Below, piece after piece: positions 20,148-33,452 of a stretch of 64,000 bases of DNA; the stretch's first letter is position 1, and each line of letters starts with the position of its first letter. The position numbers and the translations under genes were made by a program. The notes beneath the pieces were generated by a model that worked only from the letters and a program-made list of their open reading frames with translations, did not search any database and was not told where the DNA came from. The DNA comes from Acidobacteriota bacterium (GTDB lineage Bacteria > Acidobacteriota > UBA6911), in NCBI GenBank assembly GCA_012719455.1, contig JAAYAJ010000060.1, forward strand, positions 1 through 64,000, written 5' to 3'.

Positions 20148-21416
20148 ATGCGGATGGACATCCGGAAAAAAGCGCTCCCCAACGGTCTCGTCGTGGTTTC
20201 GGAGGCCATGCCCCACCTCCGCTCGGTCTCGCTGGGGGTCTGGGTCAAATGCGGCTCCCGGGTCGATCCGGCCGGGCACGCGGGGATCTCTCATTTCATC
20301 GAACACCTCCTGTTCAAGGGGACGCGCACCCGCTCGGCCGCCGCCATCGCCGCCGCGATCGATTCGGTGGGGGGGGAGCTCAACGCCTTCACCGAAAAGG
20401 AGTTCGTCGGGTTTTACGCCCGGGTGATGGACCGGCACCTGCCGCTGGCCTTCGAACTCCTGTCCGACATCGTCCTCAACCCGACCTTCCCCCCGCGGGA
20501 GATCGAGCGCGAGCGCAACGTGATCTTCGAGGAGATCAACATGATCGAGGACTCCCCCCAGGAGCTGGTCCTCGACATGCACATGGAACAGTTCTGGAAG
20601 GGGCACGCCCTGGGCCGGCCGATTTTGGGGAGCAAGGAAACGGTGGCGGCGATCACCCGCGCCGACGTCCGCGGGTTCTTCCGGGACCACTACACCGCCG
20701 GCAACACCATCGTCGCGGTCGCGGGCAACATCGACCACCGGAAGGTCCAATCGCTGGCGGAGCGCCGCTTCTCCGGCCTGGCTCCGGGAGCCGCGGCCGC
20801 GGCGGAGGCGCCCCCCACGGTCTTCCCGGGGCGGAAGGTCAGGCGCAAGCGCCACCTGGAGCAGACGCACCTCTGTTTGGGGACGGTGTCCCCTCCGGTC
20901 GGTTCGCGGGAGCGGTTCGCCGCCGGCCTCCTCTCGAACGTCCTCGGCGGGGGGATGAGTTCCCGGCTGTTCCAGAACATCCGCGAAAAACGCGGGCTGG
21001 TCTATTCCATCTACTCGATGCTGAACCTCTACCGGGACGCGGGCTCGCTCGCGGTCTACGCCGGGTGCGCCCCCGAGCGGGCGGCCCAGGTCGTGGAGCT
21101 GACGCTCGGGGAGTTCCGCCGGCTGAGGGAGCGGCTCGTGGCGCCCGCGGAGCTCAAGCGCGCCCGGGAGTGCCTGAAGGGGGCGATCGTGCTGGGGCTG
21201 GAGAGTTCCAGCAACCGGATGGCCCACCTGGCCCAGCAGATGATCTATCACGGGCGCTGCCAGGAGCCGGGGGAGATCCTGAAAGCGGTCGACCGGGTCA
21301 CGGCGCGCGAGATCCGCGATCTGGCCCAGCGCCTGTTCGATCCTTCCTCTTTGGCCCTGACCGCGCTGGGCTCCGGGCTTGGCGCCGATTTCGCGGCCGC
21401 GCCCATGGGTGCATGA
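20148..21416 (+). CDS. M16 family zinc peptidase
   Basis: About 422 residues, processing-peptidase type. The zinc motif HFIEHLLFKGT (HxxEH) lies near residues 46-56, with the downstream glutamate in the ERNVIFEEINM segment. GVWVKCGSRVDP, GGGMSSRLFQNIREKRGLVYSIYS and the second, inactive half-domain are typical. Related bacterial proteins degrade or process short peptides in the cytoplasm. ATG 20148 has GGTAAG upstream. The metallo-hydrolase gene starts 4 bases after its stop. Confidence 0.9.
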   Translation: MRMDIRKKALPNGLVVVSEAMPHLRSVSLGVWVKCGSRVDPAGHAGISHFIEHLLFKGTRTRSAAAIAAAIDSVGGELNAFTEKEFVGFYARVMDRHLPLAFELLSDIVLNPTFPPREIERERNVIFEEINMIEDSPQELVLDMHMEQFWKGHALGRPILGSKETVAAITRADVRGFFRDHYTAGNTIVAVAGNIDHRKVQSLAERRFSGLAPGAAAAAEAPPTVFPGRKVRRKRHLEQTHLCLGTVSPPVGSRERFAAGLLSNVLGGGMSSRLFQNIREKRGLVYSIYSMLNLYRDAGSLAVYAGCAPERAAQVVELTLGEFRRLRERLVAPAELKRARECLKGAIVLGLESSSNRMAHLAQQMIYHGRCQEPGEILKAVDRVTAREIRDLAQRLFDPSSLALTALGSGLGADFAAAPMGA

Positions 21417-21419
21417 CCG

Positions 21420-22205
21420 ATGGGGCTCAGTTTCACGGTACTGGGGAGCGGCAGTTCGGGGAACGCCACGCTGGTGAGCGACGGGGAGACCCATATCCTG
21501 GTGGACGTCGGGCTGAGCGGCAGGGAAACCGCGCGCCGGCTGCGCCAGCTCGGGATGGAACCGGGGCACGTGTCCGCCATCGTGATTTCCCACGAGCACG
21601 GCGACCACTGCCGCGGGGTCGGTCCCTTCGCCAAAAACCTGGAGATCCCCGTCTTCATGACGGAGGAGGCGTTCGACGGTTCGGGCCTGAAGCTGGAGGA
21701 GCGCAGGCTCCGCCGCATCCGCCCGGGCGAGGGGTTCGACATCGGGGGGATCTGCATCACCGGGTTTTCCGTTCCCCACGACGCCAGCAACCCGCTCGGC
21801 TTCGTCCTGGAGAAGGACGGGGTGCGGATCGTGATCGCGCTCGACCTGGGCTTTCTCTCGAACCTCGTCCTGGAGCGGCTGCGCGGAGCCGACGGCATCG
21901 TGATCGAGTCGAACCACGACGAGCGGATGCTCAAGGTGGGGCCCTACCCCTGGGCGCTCAAGCAGCGGGTGATGAGCCGGCGCGGCCACCTTTCCAACGA
22001 TTCGGTGGCGCACTACCTGACGAACGATTTCGACGGCCGGGCGGCCGTGGTGGTGCTGGCACACCTCAGCAAGCAGAACAACCTTCCCGAGCTGGCGCTC
22101 CTGTCGGCCCAGAGGGCCCTGGAGGAGCGCCCGGGCCTGCGGGCGCGGCACACCCGGCTCGAAGTGGCGCACCAGGACAAGATCGGCCCGACGTTCCGGT
22201 ACTGA
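21420..22205 (+). CDS. MBL-fold metallo-hydrolase (YycJ/WalJ-like)
   Basis: 261 residues, metallo-beta-lactamase fold. SHEHGDHCRG near residue 58 is the HxHxDH metal motif, and SVPHDASNPLGFVL supplies a later His. The opening FTVLGSGSSGNATLV matches the YycJ/WalJ group, which has 5'-to-3' exonuclease activity linked to repair and cell-wall signalling in Firmicutes. That specific role is not established here. It is tightly packed between the M16 gene and purB. Confidence 0.88.
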   Translation: MGLSFTVLGSGSSGNATLVSDGETHILVDVGLSGRETARRLRQLGMEPGHVSAIVISHEHGDHCRGVGPFAKNLEIPVFMTEEAFDGSGLKLEERRLRRIRPGEGFDIGGICITGFSVPHDASNPLGFVLEKDGVRIVIALDLGFLSNLVLERLRGADGIVIESNHDERMLKVGPYPWALKQRVMSRRGHLSNDSVAHYLTNDFDGRAAVVVLAHLSKQNNLPELALLSAQRALEERPGLRARHTRLEVAHQDKIGPTFRY

Positions 22206-22226
22206 CCCAGCTGCAAGGAGGCAGCC

Positions 22227-23537
22227 ATGATCGATCGTTACATGCCCCGGGATTTCGCCGGGATCTGGTCGGAAGAAAACATGTTCCGCACCTGGCTGCG
22301 GGTGGAGCTGGAGACCTGCCGCGTGCTGGCCGAAAAAGGGTGGATCCCGCAGGCGGCGATGGAGACCATCGAAAGGAAGGCGGATTTTTCCATCCAGCGG
22401 ATCCGGGAGATCGAGGCGGTCACCCACCACGACCTGATCGCGTTCACCACCAGCGTGGCCGAGTTCGTGGGCCCCGATTCCCGCTACATCCACTGGGGAC
22501 TCACCTCGACCGACGTGGTGGACACCGCCCGCGGGGTGCAGTTGCGGGAGGCGAGCGACAAGATCCTCGAAGCGATGGACGAGCTCTCCGACGCCATCCG
22601 CGCCCGCGCCCTGGAGCACAAGCGGACCGTCATGATGGGGCGCACGCACGGGGTGCACGCGGAAATCACCACCTTCGGGCTCAAGCTGGCGGTCTGGTAC
22701 GACGAGATGGGGCGCAACCGCGAGCGGATGCGCCGGGCGGCCGAAACGGCGGCCGTCGGCAAGCTGTCCGGGGCGGTCGGTACCTTCGCGCACCTCGACC
22801 CCGACGTGGAGGCGCGGGTGTGCGAGCGGCTGGGGCTGCGGCCGGCGCCCGTGTCCACCCAGACGCTGCAGCGCGACCGCCACGCGGAGTACCTGGCGGC
22901 GATCGCCATCGCCGGCAGCTCGCTCGACAAGTTCGCCACCGAGATCCGCCACCTGCAGCGGACCGAGGTGCGGGAGGCGGAGGAGCCGTTCGCCTCCGGG
23001 CAGAAGGGGTCCTCGGCGATGCCGCACAAGCGGAACCCGGTCAAATGCGAGCAGGTCTCGGGGCTTTCGCGCCTGCTGCGGGGGTACTGTGTCACCGCGC
23101 TGGAAAACGTGGCGCTCTGGCACGAGCGGGACATCTCCCACTCCTCCGCCGAGCGGGTGATCCTCCCGGACGCGACCTCGGTCCTGGCCTACATGCTCCG
23201 GTCGATGACGCGCATCGTCGCCGGCCTGGTGGTCCACCCCGACCGCATGCTCAAAAACATCGAAATGACGCGGGGGCTGGCATATTCGGGGCAGCTGCTG
23301 CTCGACCTGACCCGGAAGGGGGTGTTGCGCGAGGAGGCCTACCGCTGGATCCAGCGCTGCGCCATGAAAGTCTGGGACGAGGACAAGGACTTCCTGGAGG
23401 TCCTCGTCGAAGACCCCGACATCACCCGGGTCCTGACCGGTGAGGAGGTGCGCGCGGTCGTCAACCCCGAGCTGCAGTTGCGCAACGTCGACGCCGTTTT
23501 CGCCCGGGTCTTCGACGGGGCCGAACGGCGACGCTGA
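22227..23537 (+). CDS. purB: Adenylosuccinate lyase
   Basis: 436 residues. It cleaves SAICAR and adenylosuccinate in purine synthesis, releasing fumarate. The fumarase-superfamily signature GSSAMPHKRNPVKCEQ, carrying the catalytic serine loop, lies near residues 261-276. The conserved HWGLTSTDVVDTA (about 90) and GRTHGVHAEITTFG (about 137) are intact. GGAGG sits just before ATG 22227. The promoter of the next gene overlaps its stop codon. Confidence 0.96.
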   Translation: MIDRYMPRDFAGIWSEENMFRTWLRVELETCRVLAEKGWIPQAAMETIERKADFSIQRIREIEAVTHHDLIAFTTSVAEFVGPDSRYIHWGLTSTDVVDTARGVQLREASDKILEAMDELSDAIRARALEHKRTVMMGRTHGVHAEITTFGLKLAVWYDEMGRNRERMRRAAETAAVGKLSGAVGTFAHLDPDVEARVCERLGLRPAPVSTQTLQRDRHAEYLAAIAIAGSSLDKFATEIRHLQRTEVREAEEPFASGQKGSSAMPHKRNPVKCEQVSGLSRLLRGYCVTALENVALWHERDISHSSAERVILPDATSVLAYMLRSMTRIVAGLVVHPDRMLKNIEMTRGLAYSGQLLLDLTRKGVLREEAYRWIQRCAMKVWDEDKDFLEVLVEDPDITRVLTGEEVRAVVNPELQLRNVDAVFARVFDGAERRR

Positions 23538-23563
23538 CAGGCGCCCGCACCCTTTGCTATAAT
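23534..23563 (+). promoter_or_regulatory. Sigma-70 promoter for the dihydropyrimidinase homologue
   Basis: CTGACA (23534-23539, five of six consensus bases) and a perfect TATAAT (23558-23563) are 18 bases apart. The -35 overlaps the purB stop codon. This implies that the downstream gene is transcribed independently of purB. Confidence 0.55.
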
Positions 23564-23604
23564 CGGGGCGCCCGATCGTCGCGGCAACGCCGGTTGGAGA
23601 AGCT

Positions 23605-24981
23605 ATGACGACGCTGATCAAGAACGGGACCATCATCACCGCCGCCGACACCTACCGGGCGGACATCCTGGTCAAGAACGGCAGGGTGTTCGAAATCGGG
23701 AGAGAGATCTCCAAGATCGCCAACGAGATCATCGACGCGACCGGCAAGTGGGTGCTGCCGGGGGCGGTCGACGCCCACACGCACCTCGGCGCGCTGTGCG
23801 ACGGCATGGCGCCGGCCGACGATTTCGCGAGCGCCACGGCGGCGGCCGCCGTCGGGGGGACCACCACCGTGATCGATTACGCGGAACAGGCCCCCGGGGG
23901 GACGCTGGCCGCGGCGCTCGAGGAGTGGAAGGGGAAGGGGGCCGGCAGCTCGGTGGTGGATTACGCCTTTCATCTCGCGATCTGCGAGGTGAACCCCGGC
24001 GTCCTCGGGGAGATCCCCGCCATGGTCGACGCCGGCGTCACCAGCTTTCACGTCCGGCTCGACGGCTGCGGGGAACGGTATATCAACGACGGCGACCTGC
24101 TGGAATTCTTCGAATGCGTCCGCGGAGCCGGGGCGATCGCGTGCCTGCACGCCGAAAACGGGGAGATCGTCCGGAGCTGCCTGCGCCGGCTGCGGGCGGA
24201 GGGGAAGACGGCGGTCCGCTACCTCCCCCTGGCCCGCCCGCCGGAGGTGGAGGCCCAGGCGACGGCCCGCGCCATCAGCATCGCCGAGATGGCCCGGGCT
24301 CCCATCTACCTGAGCGGCGTCTCCTGCGCCCACGCGATCGAGAGGGTCAAGGCGGCGCGGGACCGCGGGCAGGCGGTCTACGCCGAGACCTCCCCCCACT
24401 TCCTGCTGCTTGCGAGCGACCGGTACGAAGACCCGGACGGGGAGAAGTACATCTGCATTCCGCCGCTGCGCCCCTCCTGGCACGCCGACGTGCTCTGGAA
24501 GGCGATAGCGAGCGGCGACGTCCACGCGGTCGCGAGCAATCACCGGGCGTTCGACCACGCGGGGCAGAAGGAGCTCGGGAGGGATGATTTTACCCGGGCC
24601 CCGCACGGGTTTGCGGGGATCCAGGAGCGGGTGTCCCTCATGCACTCGGCCGGCGTCGGCGCGGGAAAGATCTCGCCCAACCGCCTGGTCGAGCTGGTGA
24701 GCGCCTTCCCGGCCAGGATCTTCGGGCTCTTCCCGCGCAAGGGGACGCTGTCGGTCGGGAGCGACGCCGACATGATCCTCTTCGACCCCGAGGCCGAGGT
24801 CACCCTGACGCAGGCTAAGAGCGTTTCACGTTCCGATTACACCCCCTACGAGGGGATGAGTGTGCGCGGCGCCCCCTGGATGGTACTGCAGCGGGGGAAG
24901 GTGATCGCGCGCAAGCACAAGATCATGACGGGCGCCGGCGCCGGGGAGTTCCTCCCCTCGGTCCGGTCGAGCCTGCCGTGA
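23605..24981 (+). CDS. Dihydropyrimidinase-like protein lacking metal ligands
   Basis: 458 residues, clearly of the dihydropyrimidinase/D-hydantoinase branch of amidohydrolases: TLIKNGTIITAADTYRADI at the start, HTH in VDAHTHLG near 58, LHAEN near 181 and LFGLFPRKGTLSVGSDAD near the C terminus. The ligands that normally build the two-metal site are damaged. The carboxylated Lys of SFK is H149 (SFHVRLD), the His of the HxS motif is G238 (LSGVS), and the catalytic Asp of TDHCPF is N312 (SNHRAF). The substrate Tyr after the Lys is also lost. Only three of six ligands remain, so hydantoinase activity is unlikely. A scaffold or regulatory pseudoenzyme, or new chemistry, is possible. It has its own promoter and GGAG ribosome site. 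Confidence 0.85.
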   Translation: MTTLIKNGTIITAADTYRADILVKNGRVFEIGREISKIANEIIDATGKWVLPGAVDAHTHLGALCDGMAPADDFASATAAAAVGGTTTVIDYAEQAPGGTLAAALEEWKGKGAGSSVVDYAFHLAICEVNPGVLGEIPAMVDAGVTSFHVRLDGCGERYINDGDLLEFFECVRGAGAIACLHAENGEIVRSCLRRLRAEGKTAVRYLPLARPPEVEAQATARAISIAEMARAPIYLSGVSCAHAIERVKAARDRGQAVYAETSPHFLLLASDRYEDPDGEKYICIPPLRPSWHADVLWKAIASGDVHAVASNHRAFDHAGQKELGRDDFTRAPHGFAGIQERVSLMHSAGVGAGKISPNRLVELVSAFPARIFGLFPRKGTLSVGSDADMILFDPEAEVTLTQAKSVSRSDYTPYEGMSVRGAPWMVLQRGKVIARKHKIMTGAGAGEFLPSVRSSLP

Positions 24982-25024: not shown

Positions 25025-26836
25025 TTGAGCAGAGAGTGTCCAGAGTGCGGCAAGGGATACCCGGACGAATTCTCCTACTGTCCCGCGGACGGGGCGGCGC
25101 TCGCGGGCGCCCCGCAGGGGTACGGGCTGCGGGGGGGGAAGGCGAAACCGGCCGTGATCCGGGTCCGTACCGTGATGCTGGGATTCGCGGTCCTGGTCCT
25201 GATGGCGCTGGTCTCCTTCACCGCCGCCTTCCTGTACCAGTACTGGAAACCGAAGTTCGGGGGGTTGATGGTCAAGACCACGCCCGCCGGCGCCCTCGTG
25301 TCGGTCGACGGCGAGGTGCGCGGGACCACCCCGGTCTCGATCGAGAACCTGCGGAGCGGGGGGCACCGGTTGAGCCTCGCGCTGGAGGGGTACAAGGAGC
25401 AGGTCCGGCAGGTGATGGTGATCCCCTACGCCACCGAAAGCCTGCACTACAGCCTCGAGCCCGTCGTCCCCCGGCTCAGCAACGAGCAGCTGGCGGAGAT
25501 CGAAGCGCTCGGCAGGAAGCTGGACGGCGCGCTGAAGGACAACATCCTCCTCCCCCCCCCCGAGGACTACAACGTCCTCTACTTCGTCGACCGGATCCTC
25601 GCGATCGACCCCGCCAACCAGAACGCGGCCGGCGTCCGCTCCCGGCTGGCCGATACCATCCGCCGGGGCGCCGAGGTGGCCTACGCGCGCGAAGACTGGC
25701 TGGAGTCGGAGAAGCAGTACCGGAACCTCCTGCTCCTCTTCCCGGGGGACGCCGCCATCGGGGAGCGGCTCGAGGATATCGCGGCCAAGCTCGACGAGAG
25801 CCTGCAGGACCGCGAGGAGCAGATCCTGCGGTGGTGCGCCCGGGCCGAGGCGGCCATGAAGGTCGGGAGTCTCCTCCCCCCGGACCGGGACAACGCCCTG
25901 GACGCCATCCGGAGCATTCAGCGTCTCGACCCGAACAACGGCTACATCCGGGAGGCGGTCGCGCGCCTGAAGGAGCTGATGCAGAACCGCGGGGACGCCA
26001 AGATCGCCGCTTCCGACTGGACGGGGGCGCGCGATGATTTCCGGGCGATGCTCGAGTATTTTCCCGAGGACAGCTACAGCCGGGCCCGACTGGAGACGAT
26101 CGAGTCCCGGTTGGCCGAGCTGGCGCGGGCGGAGCGGCAGAAGAGCGAGGAGAAGGAATCGAGCGCGAGGATCGCCGCGCTGCGCCAGGCGGCCCTGCAA
26201 TCCTTCCGCGCGGGCGCCTATGAAAAGTCGATCGCGGAGTGGCGCGATTTTCTCAAGGCGGAGCCGGCGAGCGACGAGGCCTACTTCTACCTCGGCGCCA
26301 GCTACCAGAACCGGAAGCAGCTCGACACCGCCATCCTGAATTTCGAGAAATGCCTCCAGCTCAACCCCAACAACGTCCTGGCGCACCTCAACCTGGGCCT
26401 GCTCTACGACTACCACCGCAACAACCTCAAGCGGGCCGAGGAGCACCTGGTCCGGGCCCGGGAGCTGGGGGGGGCGGACTCCTACACCCCGGAGCGCCTG
26501 TTGTCGATGATCCAGGACCTCCGGGACAGGGAGCGCGCCGCCGCCGTCATGAAGCAATCGTACCCGGTGGAACATCGGCACGCGTTTTCGAGTTGCCGGG
26601 GGAGCCTCCATTTTTCGGAAGAGGGGATGGAGTTCCGGACGACGGAGACCGACCATAGTTTCTACGAGTCCTACCGCGACATGCGCCACTTCGCCATCGA
26701 GGGGGACCAGATGTCGGTCCGGACGCGCAACAACAAGAAATACAATTTCCGTTTCCTCGACGCCGGCGACCCGGAGCGGATCCGTGCCTGGATCTCCTCC
26801 ACCCGCCGCATCATCGTCGGCGGCAAGGTGGAGTGA
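25025..26836 (+). CDS. Zinc ribbon - TM - PEGA - TPR protein
   Basis: 603 residues starting at TTG 25025 with GGGAG upstream. Order: a zinc ribbon (CPECGKGYPDEFSYC, 4-18), a transmembrane helix (about 46-66), a PEGA domain (about 75-140, GGLMVKTTPAGALVSVDGE and LRSGGHRLSLALEGY), then helical TPR repeats to about 510, and a C-terminal beta-rich region reading RHAFSSCRGSLHFSEEGMEF. The topology suggests a cytoplasmic ribbon and a periplasmic PEGA/TPR part. PEGA domains are associated with cell-surface polysaccharide or S-layer binding. Precise role unknown. It converges with the next gene with one base between stops. Confidence 0.75.
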   Translation: MSRECPECGKGYPDEFSYCPADGAALAGAPQGYGLRGGKAKPAVIRVRTVMLGFAVLVLMALVSFTAAFLYQYWKPKFGGLMVKTTPAGALVSVDGEVRGTTPVSIENLRSGGHRLSLALEGYKEQVRQVMVIPYATESLHYSLEPVVPRLSNEQLAEIEALGRKLDGALKDNILLPPPEDYNVLYFVDRILAIDPANQNAAGVRSRLADTIRRGAEVAYAREDWLESEKQYRNLLLLFPGDAAIGERLEDIAAKLDESLQDREEQILRWCARAEAAMKVGSLLPPDRDNALDAIRSIQRLDPNNGYIREAVARLKELMQNRGDAKIAASDWTGARDDFRAMLEYFPEDSYSRARLETIESRLAELARAERQKSEEKESSARIAALRQAALQSFRAGAYEKSIAEWRDFLKAEPASDEAYFYLGASYQNRKQLDTAILNFEKCLQLNPNNVLAHLNLGLLYDYHRNNLKRAEEHLVRARELGGADSYTPERLLSMIQDLRDRERAAAVMKQSYPVEHRHAFSSCRGSLHFSEEGMEFRTTETDHSFYESYRDMRHFAIEGDQMSVRTRNNKKYNFRFLDAGDPERIRAWISSTRRIIVGGKVE

Positions 26837-33110: not shown

Positions 33111-33452
33111 ATGGTTAACAGGAAGCTCATTCGTCCCAGTTTGTCCGAAATCAAGGACCAGATGCCGCGTTACGGTTCGGCCCCTCGCAAACGCGTTCCG
33201 CCGGAGGTGACCAACGCCGAGAACTATTACTACATAAAGCAGATGGCGGCCAAAACTCCGATGGTCGTCGTCCTCATCGACGGCGAGGAGATCCTGGGCG
33301 TCATCGAGTGGTACGACCGCAACTGCATCAAGGTGCATCGCGACGACGGACCCAACCTCCTCATCATGAAGCACGTGATCAAGTACATCCACAAACAGAA
33401 CGAAGACCAGGAACCGGACCAGGTCGATATGAATCAAGGAGACGAGGAGTAG
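33111..33452 (+). CDS. hfq: RNA chaperone Hfq, extended form
   Basis: 113 residues. The Sm core (about 40-95) is recognisable: NAENYYYIKQM, Sm1 MVVVLIDGEEILGVIEWYDR and Sm2 LLIMKHVIKYI, whose Lys-His matches the KH of classical Hfq. Before it lies a 40-residue extension rich in Arg/Lys and Pro; after it comes an acidic tail (NEDQEPDQ...GDEE). Classical Hfq begins almost directly at the core. Hfq rings bind small RNAs and mRNAs. GGAGG precedes ATG 33111, and pdxA follows after 21 bases, so the two are probably one operon. Confidence 0.85.
   Translation: MVNRKLIRPSLSEIKDQMPRYGSAPRKRVPPEVTNAENYYYIKQMAAKTPMVVVLIDGEEILGVIEWYDRNCIKVHRDDGPNLLIMKHVIKYIHKQNEDQEPDQVDMNQGDEE

Follow-up and report, generated by a model that had tools for sequence, protein, structure and literature searches.

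The dihydropyrimidinase homologue encoded in this window (the whole stretch of DNA analysed, 64,000 nucleotides) raises the question of whether a protein that has the fold of a hydantoinase, and has lost several of the residues with which hydantoinases work, is still an enzyme and, if it is not, how it came to be kept. A first, sequence-only reading had placed the feature at 23534-24981 and proposed either a pseudoenzyme or a new one-metal chemistry. Position 23534 in fact opens the -35 box, and the coding sequence starts at 23605, in the following setting:

22227-23537, + strand: purB, adenylosuccinate lyase, the upstream neighbour (TIGR00928, 514 bits; adjacency conserved in the genus)
23534-23563, + strand: sigma-70-type promoter, CTGACA-18-TATAAT, overlapping the purB stop codon
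23596-23599, + strand: ribosome-binding site GGAG, 5 nt 5' of the ATG, read from the sequence
23605-24981, + strand: coding sequence of the putative dihydropyrimidinase/D-hydantoinase-like pseudoenzyme (ATG start, 458 aa)
25025-26836, + strand: PEGA/TPR protein, the downstream neighbour (Pfam PEGA and TPR), adjoining the gene in most family members

The near-consensus promoter and the ribosome site reported at the outset were both confirmed. The promoter matches the consensus at 11 of 12 positions (expectation from shuffles, 0.0), and both hexamers are identical in the congeners G004 and G006, with the sequence 3' of them diverged; GGAG occurs at a similar location in most relatives' genes. 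The intact frame, which had been taken to mean that the gene is kept for a purpose, is by itself weak evidence, since the window has a GC content of 68.6% and also holds a 1064-codon open reading frame (20249-23443, + strand) that runs out of frame over the M16 peptidase, MBL and purB genes and is a chance product of that composition. A selection test is better evidence for the gene's retention. Orthologues were recognised by their syntenic neighbours, which within the genus are the M16 peptidase, MBL protein, purB and PEGA/TPR genes and in the wider family the PEGA/TPR gene. Across the genus this gene has an omega of 0.089 (purB 0.058, M16 peptidase 0.094, PEGA/TPR protein 0.121), so the dihydropyrimidinase-like family is constrained by purifying selection; the check on selection proposed with the first reading thus came out in its favour.

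Scored against TIGR02033, the protein reaches 493.6 bits and exceeds the curated equivalog cut-off of 393.25, so that an automatic pipeline would call it a dihydropyrimidinase. An equivalog-level rule here gives that name to a protein without the catalytic residues, and, to judge by those residues, a working dihydropyrimidinase is almost certainly what it is not. The query protein is like the D-hydantoinases and dihydropyrimidinases (TIGR02033; 1k1d, 3sfw and PaDHPase, the Pseudomonas aeruginosa dihydropyrimidinase, 5e5c) in length, fold, family score, the HxH motif and the strand-5 His, but differs from them in that the bridging Lys, the beta-site His, the catalytic Asp and three substrate residues are replaced. 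Its alignment to the solved D-hydantoinases 1k1d and 1yny (E-values of 1e-115 to 1e-118) has no gaps around the catalytic sites. Set against the metal ligands of PaDHPase (H59, H61, Kcx150, H183, H239 and D316; PMC8860565), three of six are kept and three are lost, the latter exactly as first read:

23776-23784, + strand: HxH motif His58-Thr-His60 (protein strand 1), alpha-metal ligands kept; invariant in 10 family members
24049-24051, + strand: His149 replacing the carboxylated bridging Lys, from alignment to 1k1d/1yny; His in 7 genus members
24148-24150, + strand: His182 (protein strand 5), beta-site ligand kept; invariant in the clade
24316-24318, + strand: Gly238 replacing the strand-6 beta-metal His; all family members have Gly, Ser or Asn here and G016 has Cys
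24538-24540, + strand: Asn312 (AAT) replacing the strand-8 catalytic Asp; private to the query in the family, relatives having GAC/GAT (Asp) or GAG (Glu)

The description of a metal site half gone is accurate for the ligands and understates the loss, as the columns of the PaDHPase substrate residues Y155, S289 and N337 (PMC8860565) hold Gly154, Ile285 and His334 in the query, and the first stereochemistry-gate loop is altered too. The AlphaFold2 model of the query, built from 48 sequences, has a mean pLDDT of 96.1 and superposes on 3sfw with a TM score of 0.98 and an rmsd of 1.2 Å over 461 columns. The TIM-barrel plus beta-sandwich fold of hydantoinases is predicted to be intact, and the superposition makes a shifted alignment register unlikely; the suggestion that a structure-based alignment might place standard ligands elsewhere was not borne out.

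All six metal ligands are present in 113 of the 125 homologues compared. The 12 that deviate, namely the ten members of the query's family, one protein from another family of the class (G016) and one from another class of the phylum (G052), form a single clade with a support of 98/95 in a tree from which all active-site segments had been removed; a tree artefact of convergent site loss was rejected on this ground, and G052 is a long branch whose exact placement is less sure. In G016 the His at position 238 is replaced by Cys, and in G052 the first His of HxH has become Ser, the Lys Ile and the Asp Asn. The G052 gene (L124:5993-7369) retains the beta-site His238 despite its differently broken site, and an N-terminally extended RpiB-like gene begins 3 bases after it, followed by DeoC. 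When 396 Acidobacteriota genomes were searched with a profile, full-length matches above 725 bits were clade members alone, 607 bits being the best score after them. All loci checked under this line had their six ligands complete, and no further clade members were found; with matches in 12 of the 396 sampled genomes, the paralogue is rare. Plasmid relatives of the query were also considered, and all fall below 60% identity.

Codon comparison at the six sites places the three substitutions at different depths. At position 238 all ten family members have Asn, Ser or Gly, the beta-site His having been lost family-wide. At position 149 the three family members from other genera have Lys, and the seven gene-bearing members of the query's genus have His; position 312 is Asp in eight family members, Glu in G008 and Asn in the query only. 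The G003 protein, for instance, combines H149, S238 and D312, and the G011 protein K149, N238 and D312. The full alpha-site set (H58, H60, Lys/His149 and Asp/Glu312) is present in all nine family relatives. These codons indicate that the beta site was affected before the alpha site and that D312N is recent. The Glu of the G008 orthologue (L115:9661-11034) is a second, independent change at the catalytic-Asp position. Within the family, H149 is found in seven members and the loss of H238 in ten, the query counted in both, but N312 in the query only, and the substitutions, which had been presented together, are not one package. The 106 six-ligand proteins compared have 77 columns conserved at 95% or more, and all ten family members retain 53 of these; the outright losses (columns 154, 207, 237, 238, 265, 334 and 340) lie mostly within or adjoining the active site, in agreement with the view that the loss is aimed at the active site and is not random decay. 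A recent pseudogene with random damage was rejected, the frame being open and the changes concentrated on the active site. Living relatives thus display a two-metal amidohydrolase dismantled in a readable order (beta-site His, bridging Lys, catalytic Asp), and the staged series provides a testable model for enzymes turning into pseudoenzymes or one-metal enzymes.

The query is probably a copy that is catalytically dead or dying, the last stage of this stepwise loss, and orthologous to a dihydropyrimidinase/D-hydantoinase paralogue inherited vertically within the Acidobacteriota. Loss would have begun with the beta-site His and the residues that recognise the substrate, the bridging Lys would then have become His in the query's genus, and the catalytic Asp would have gone last, in the query's species alone. 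The product would retain the fold of a hydantoinase and no more than a weak one-metal site (H58, H60, H149 and perhaps H182), would be without hydrolytic catalysis and, if still working, could be a folded non-catalytic subunit or a ligand-binding protein; it is in this conditional sense that its lack of activity, metal state, oligomeric state and any binding role are to be understood. The pseudoenzyme proposal stands to the extent that hydantoinase chemistry would, on the residues present, have been lost. Two observations count against a dead site: all family members, with the query among them, have HxH and H182 unchanged, which would be odd if the site had no role, and the promoter and ribosome-binding site of the gene are intact. 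In the open literature searched, which gave partial coverage, no account of a pseudoenzyme among bacterial dihydropyrimidinases was found.

The conserved alpha site could also mean that the family, including the query, is a one-metal amidohydrolase that uses the alpha site alone (H58, H60, His/Lys149 and Asp312) on a new substrate. The type-I dihydroorotase of Aquifex aeolicus is mononuclear and kinetically competent, its single zinc being held by His61, His63 and Asp153, the last at the Lys position (PMC3880350); it is a precedent for a single alpha-site metal without carboxylated Lys and makes position 149 of the query a candidate direct ligand. By analogy with this pattern the query's relatives may be one-metal enzymes: all nine keep the alpha set, their loss of metal ligands is confined to the beta-site His apart from the Lys-to-His change, the family has fixed new residues (G154, H243, H265 and Q340, with R334 in nine of ten), and catabolic genes for an aldehyde dehydrogenase, a class III aminotransferase, a class III CoA-transferase or DeoC neighbour some of them. 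For the family with the query in it, however, this reading is rather unlikely. The Aquifex enzyme is catalytic and keeps its Asp305 where the query has Asn312; the mononuclear type-I alpha site (HxH, a ligand at the Lys position and the strand-8 Asp) is complete by sequence in all nine relatives from the family (one having Glu for Asp) and incomplete in the query, which also lacks R334 and has the altered gate loop; removal of the beta site in binuclear amidohydrolases abolishes activity (PMC3880350); and the catabolic neighbours are not beside the gene in the query's genus. The one-metal chemistry first suggested consequently suits the relatives, with their full alpha sites, better than the query, which has lost the Asp. 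It is doubtful, too, that the clade is a new one-metal class of cyclic amidohydrolase, marked by beta-site loss and the change of the bridging Lys to His, in which a mononuclear site would act on an acidic substrate bound by Arg334, new ligands or bases possibly being supplied by His243 and His265; were this so, nature would have knocked out the last catalytic residue in the query. His243 and His265 are invariant across the clade, occur in less than 5% of six-ligand homologues and might replace lost ligands or bases.

For the dead or dying copy that we favour, the tempo of recent change is informative. At positions fixed in four other congeners the query has 20 private changes, compared with 3 on the sister stem, a contrast that amounts to 66:50 in eight neighbouring genes pooled (Fisher p=0.009). 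Nine of the query's 17 changes at family-fixed positions fall inside active-site segments (p=0.002), the segments of this clustering test being the author's own choice, and the congener G005, whose genome is 99% complete, has no copy at all, purB running directly into the PEGA/TPR gene. The accelerated active-site region suggests that the role of the query is weak or being lost. The claim that the gene is kept for a purpose accordingly holds for the family and its constraint, but less so for the query copy, given this acceleration and the absence from G005. At the extreme, no function would be left in the query's species, the frame being open merely for want of time since selection relaxed; the private D312N and the 17 private changes, in excess over the sisters, fit such early decay, as does the gene-less congener. 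We consider it unlikely in view of the open frame, the conserved promoter, the confident fold prediction and a dN/dS of 0.36-0.42 between the query and G004 or G006, a value well below 1 and no higher than (indeed similar to) those of the M16 peptidase or rlmN, which indicates that the protein is still constrained.

If the dead or dying copy is retained for some non-catalytic task, it might be a regulatory or structural partner of another enzyme, after the model of the pseudo-dihydroorotase of P. aeruginosa (pDHO), an obligate partner of aspartate transcarbamoylase without activity of its own (PMC7053772). This precedent from the same superfamily and the presence of purB directly upstream throughout the genus speak for such a role; we nevertheless find it improbable, as there is no conserved partner gene, the adjacency to purB is limited to the genus, G005 has purB without the gene, and the dihydroorotase gene is not adjacent, lying on another contig. 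Like what is predicted for the query, pDHO is a bacterial cyclic-amidohydrolase relative without activity, but it belongs to a different subfamily; dihydroorotase models give the query 226 of the 279 bits of their cut-off, and the pyrB link of pDHO is not seen, the query's neighbours being purB and the PEGA/TPR gene. A partnership with a true dihydropyrimidinase was rejected, since in the query's genus only the orthologues themselves exceed the cut-off. The CRMP/DPYSL proteins, non-enzymatic animal relatives of dihydropyrimidinase to which the first reading had likened the query, share with it a dihydropyrimidinase fold from which ligands have gone, two of six remaining in CRMP-4 (PMC4051505) and three of six in the query. 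The likeness is one of analogy, however, for the query is independent and bacterial, keeps HxH, scores up to 400 bits against bacterial hydantoinases and at most 289 bits against CRMPs, and is closer to the former in structural comparison as well; it ends at residue 458, matching the hydantoinase end, with none of the long C-terminal regulatory tail of CRMPs. Both CRMPs and pseudo-dihydroorotase are analogies and not families containing the query.

That the protein is a normal hydantoinase whose losses are misalignment or sequence error is scarcely credible: its sole support is that the query genome (107 contigs) appears to be metagenome-assembled, as the relatives' genomes are, so that N312 rests on a single consensus, whereas H149 recurs in seven genomes and the loss of H238 in ten, the sites are ungapped and the predicted fold superposes at 1.2 Å. 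Chance was rejected as well, with 113 of 125 homologues keeping all six ligands and the other 12 falling in one clade.

The gene's surroundings bear on its origin. In the query's genus its neighbours are housekeeping genes. In other relatives a class III aminotransferase (G012 and G014) or an aldehyde dehydrogenase (G011) adjoins it, resembling those beside true dihydropyrimidinases; a class III CoA-transferase follows it in G011 and G016 (57% identity between the two), and DeoC lies near it in G014 and G052 (53% identity). This suggests that the gene descended from a nucleoside or pyrimidine breakdown operon. In the query genome no dihydropyrimidine dehydrogenase was found above the cut-off (the best match lies near the dihydroorotase gene) and no true dihydropyrimidinase was found, so the pathway appears to be missing from this organism. 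A role in reductive pyrimidine breakdown was rejected, dihydropyrimidine dehydrogenase being absent above the cut-off from 13 genomes; the one strong match, in G188, stands beside an active-type dihydropyrimidinase. A microcompartment link was likewise set aside, no shell protein having been found in the query genome. Elsewhere in the window, an Hfq-related small protein of 81 aa (33207-33452, + strand) is conserved in the congeners. In G012 (L127; contig 12, 108001-127000) an 8-oxoguanine deaminase is succeeded by an active-type dihydropyrimidinase, and downstream of the latter lie a GntR regulator, RpiB, DeoC, an aldehyde dehydrogenase and several shell genes (BMC, EutN_CcmL), which is possibly a nucleobase-breakdown microcompartment locus.
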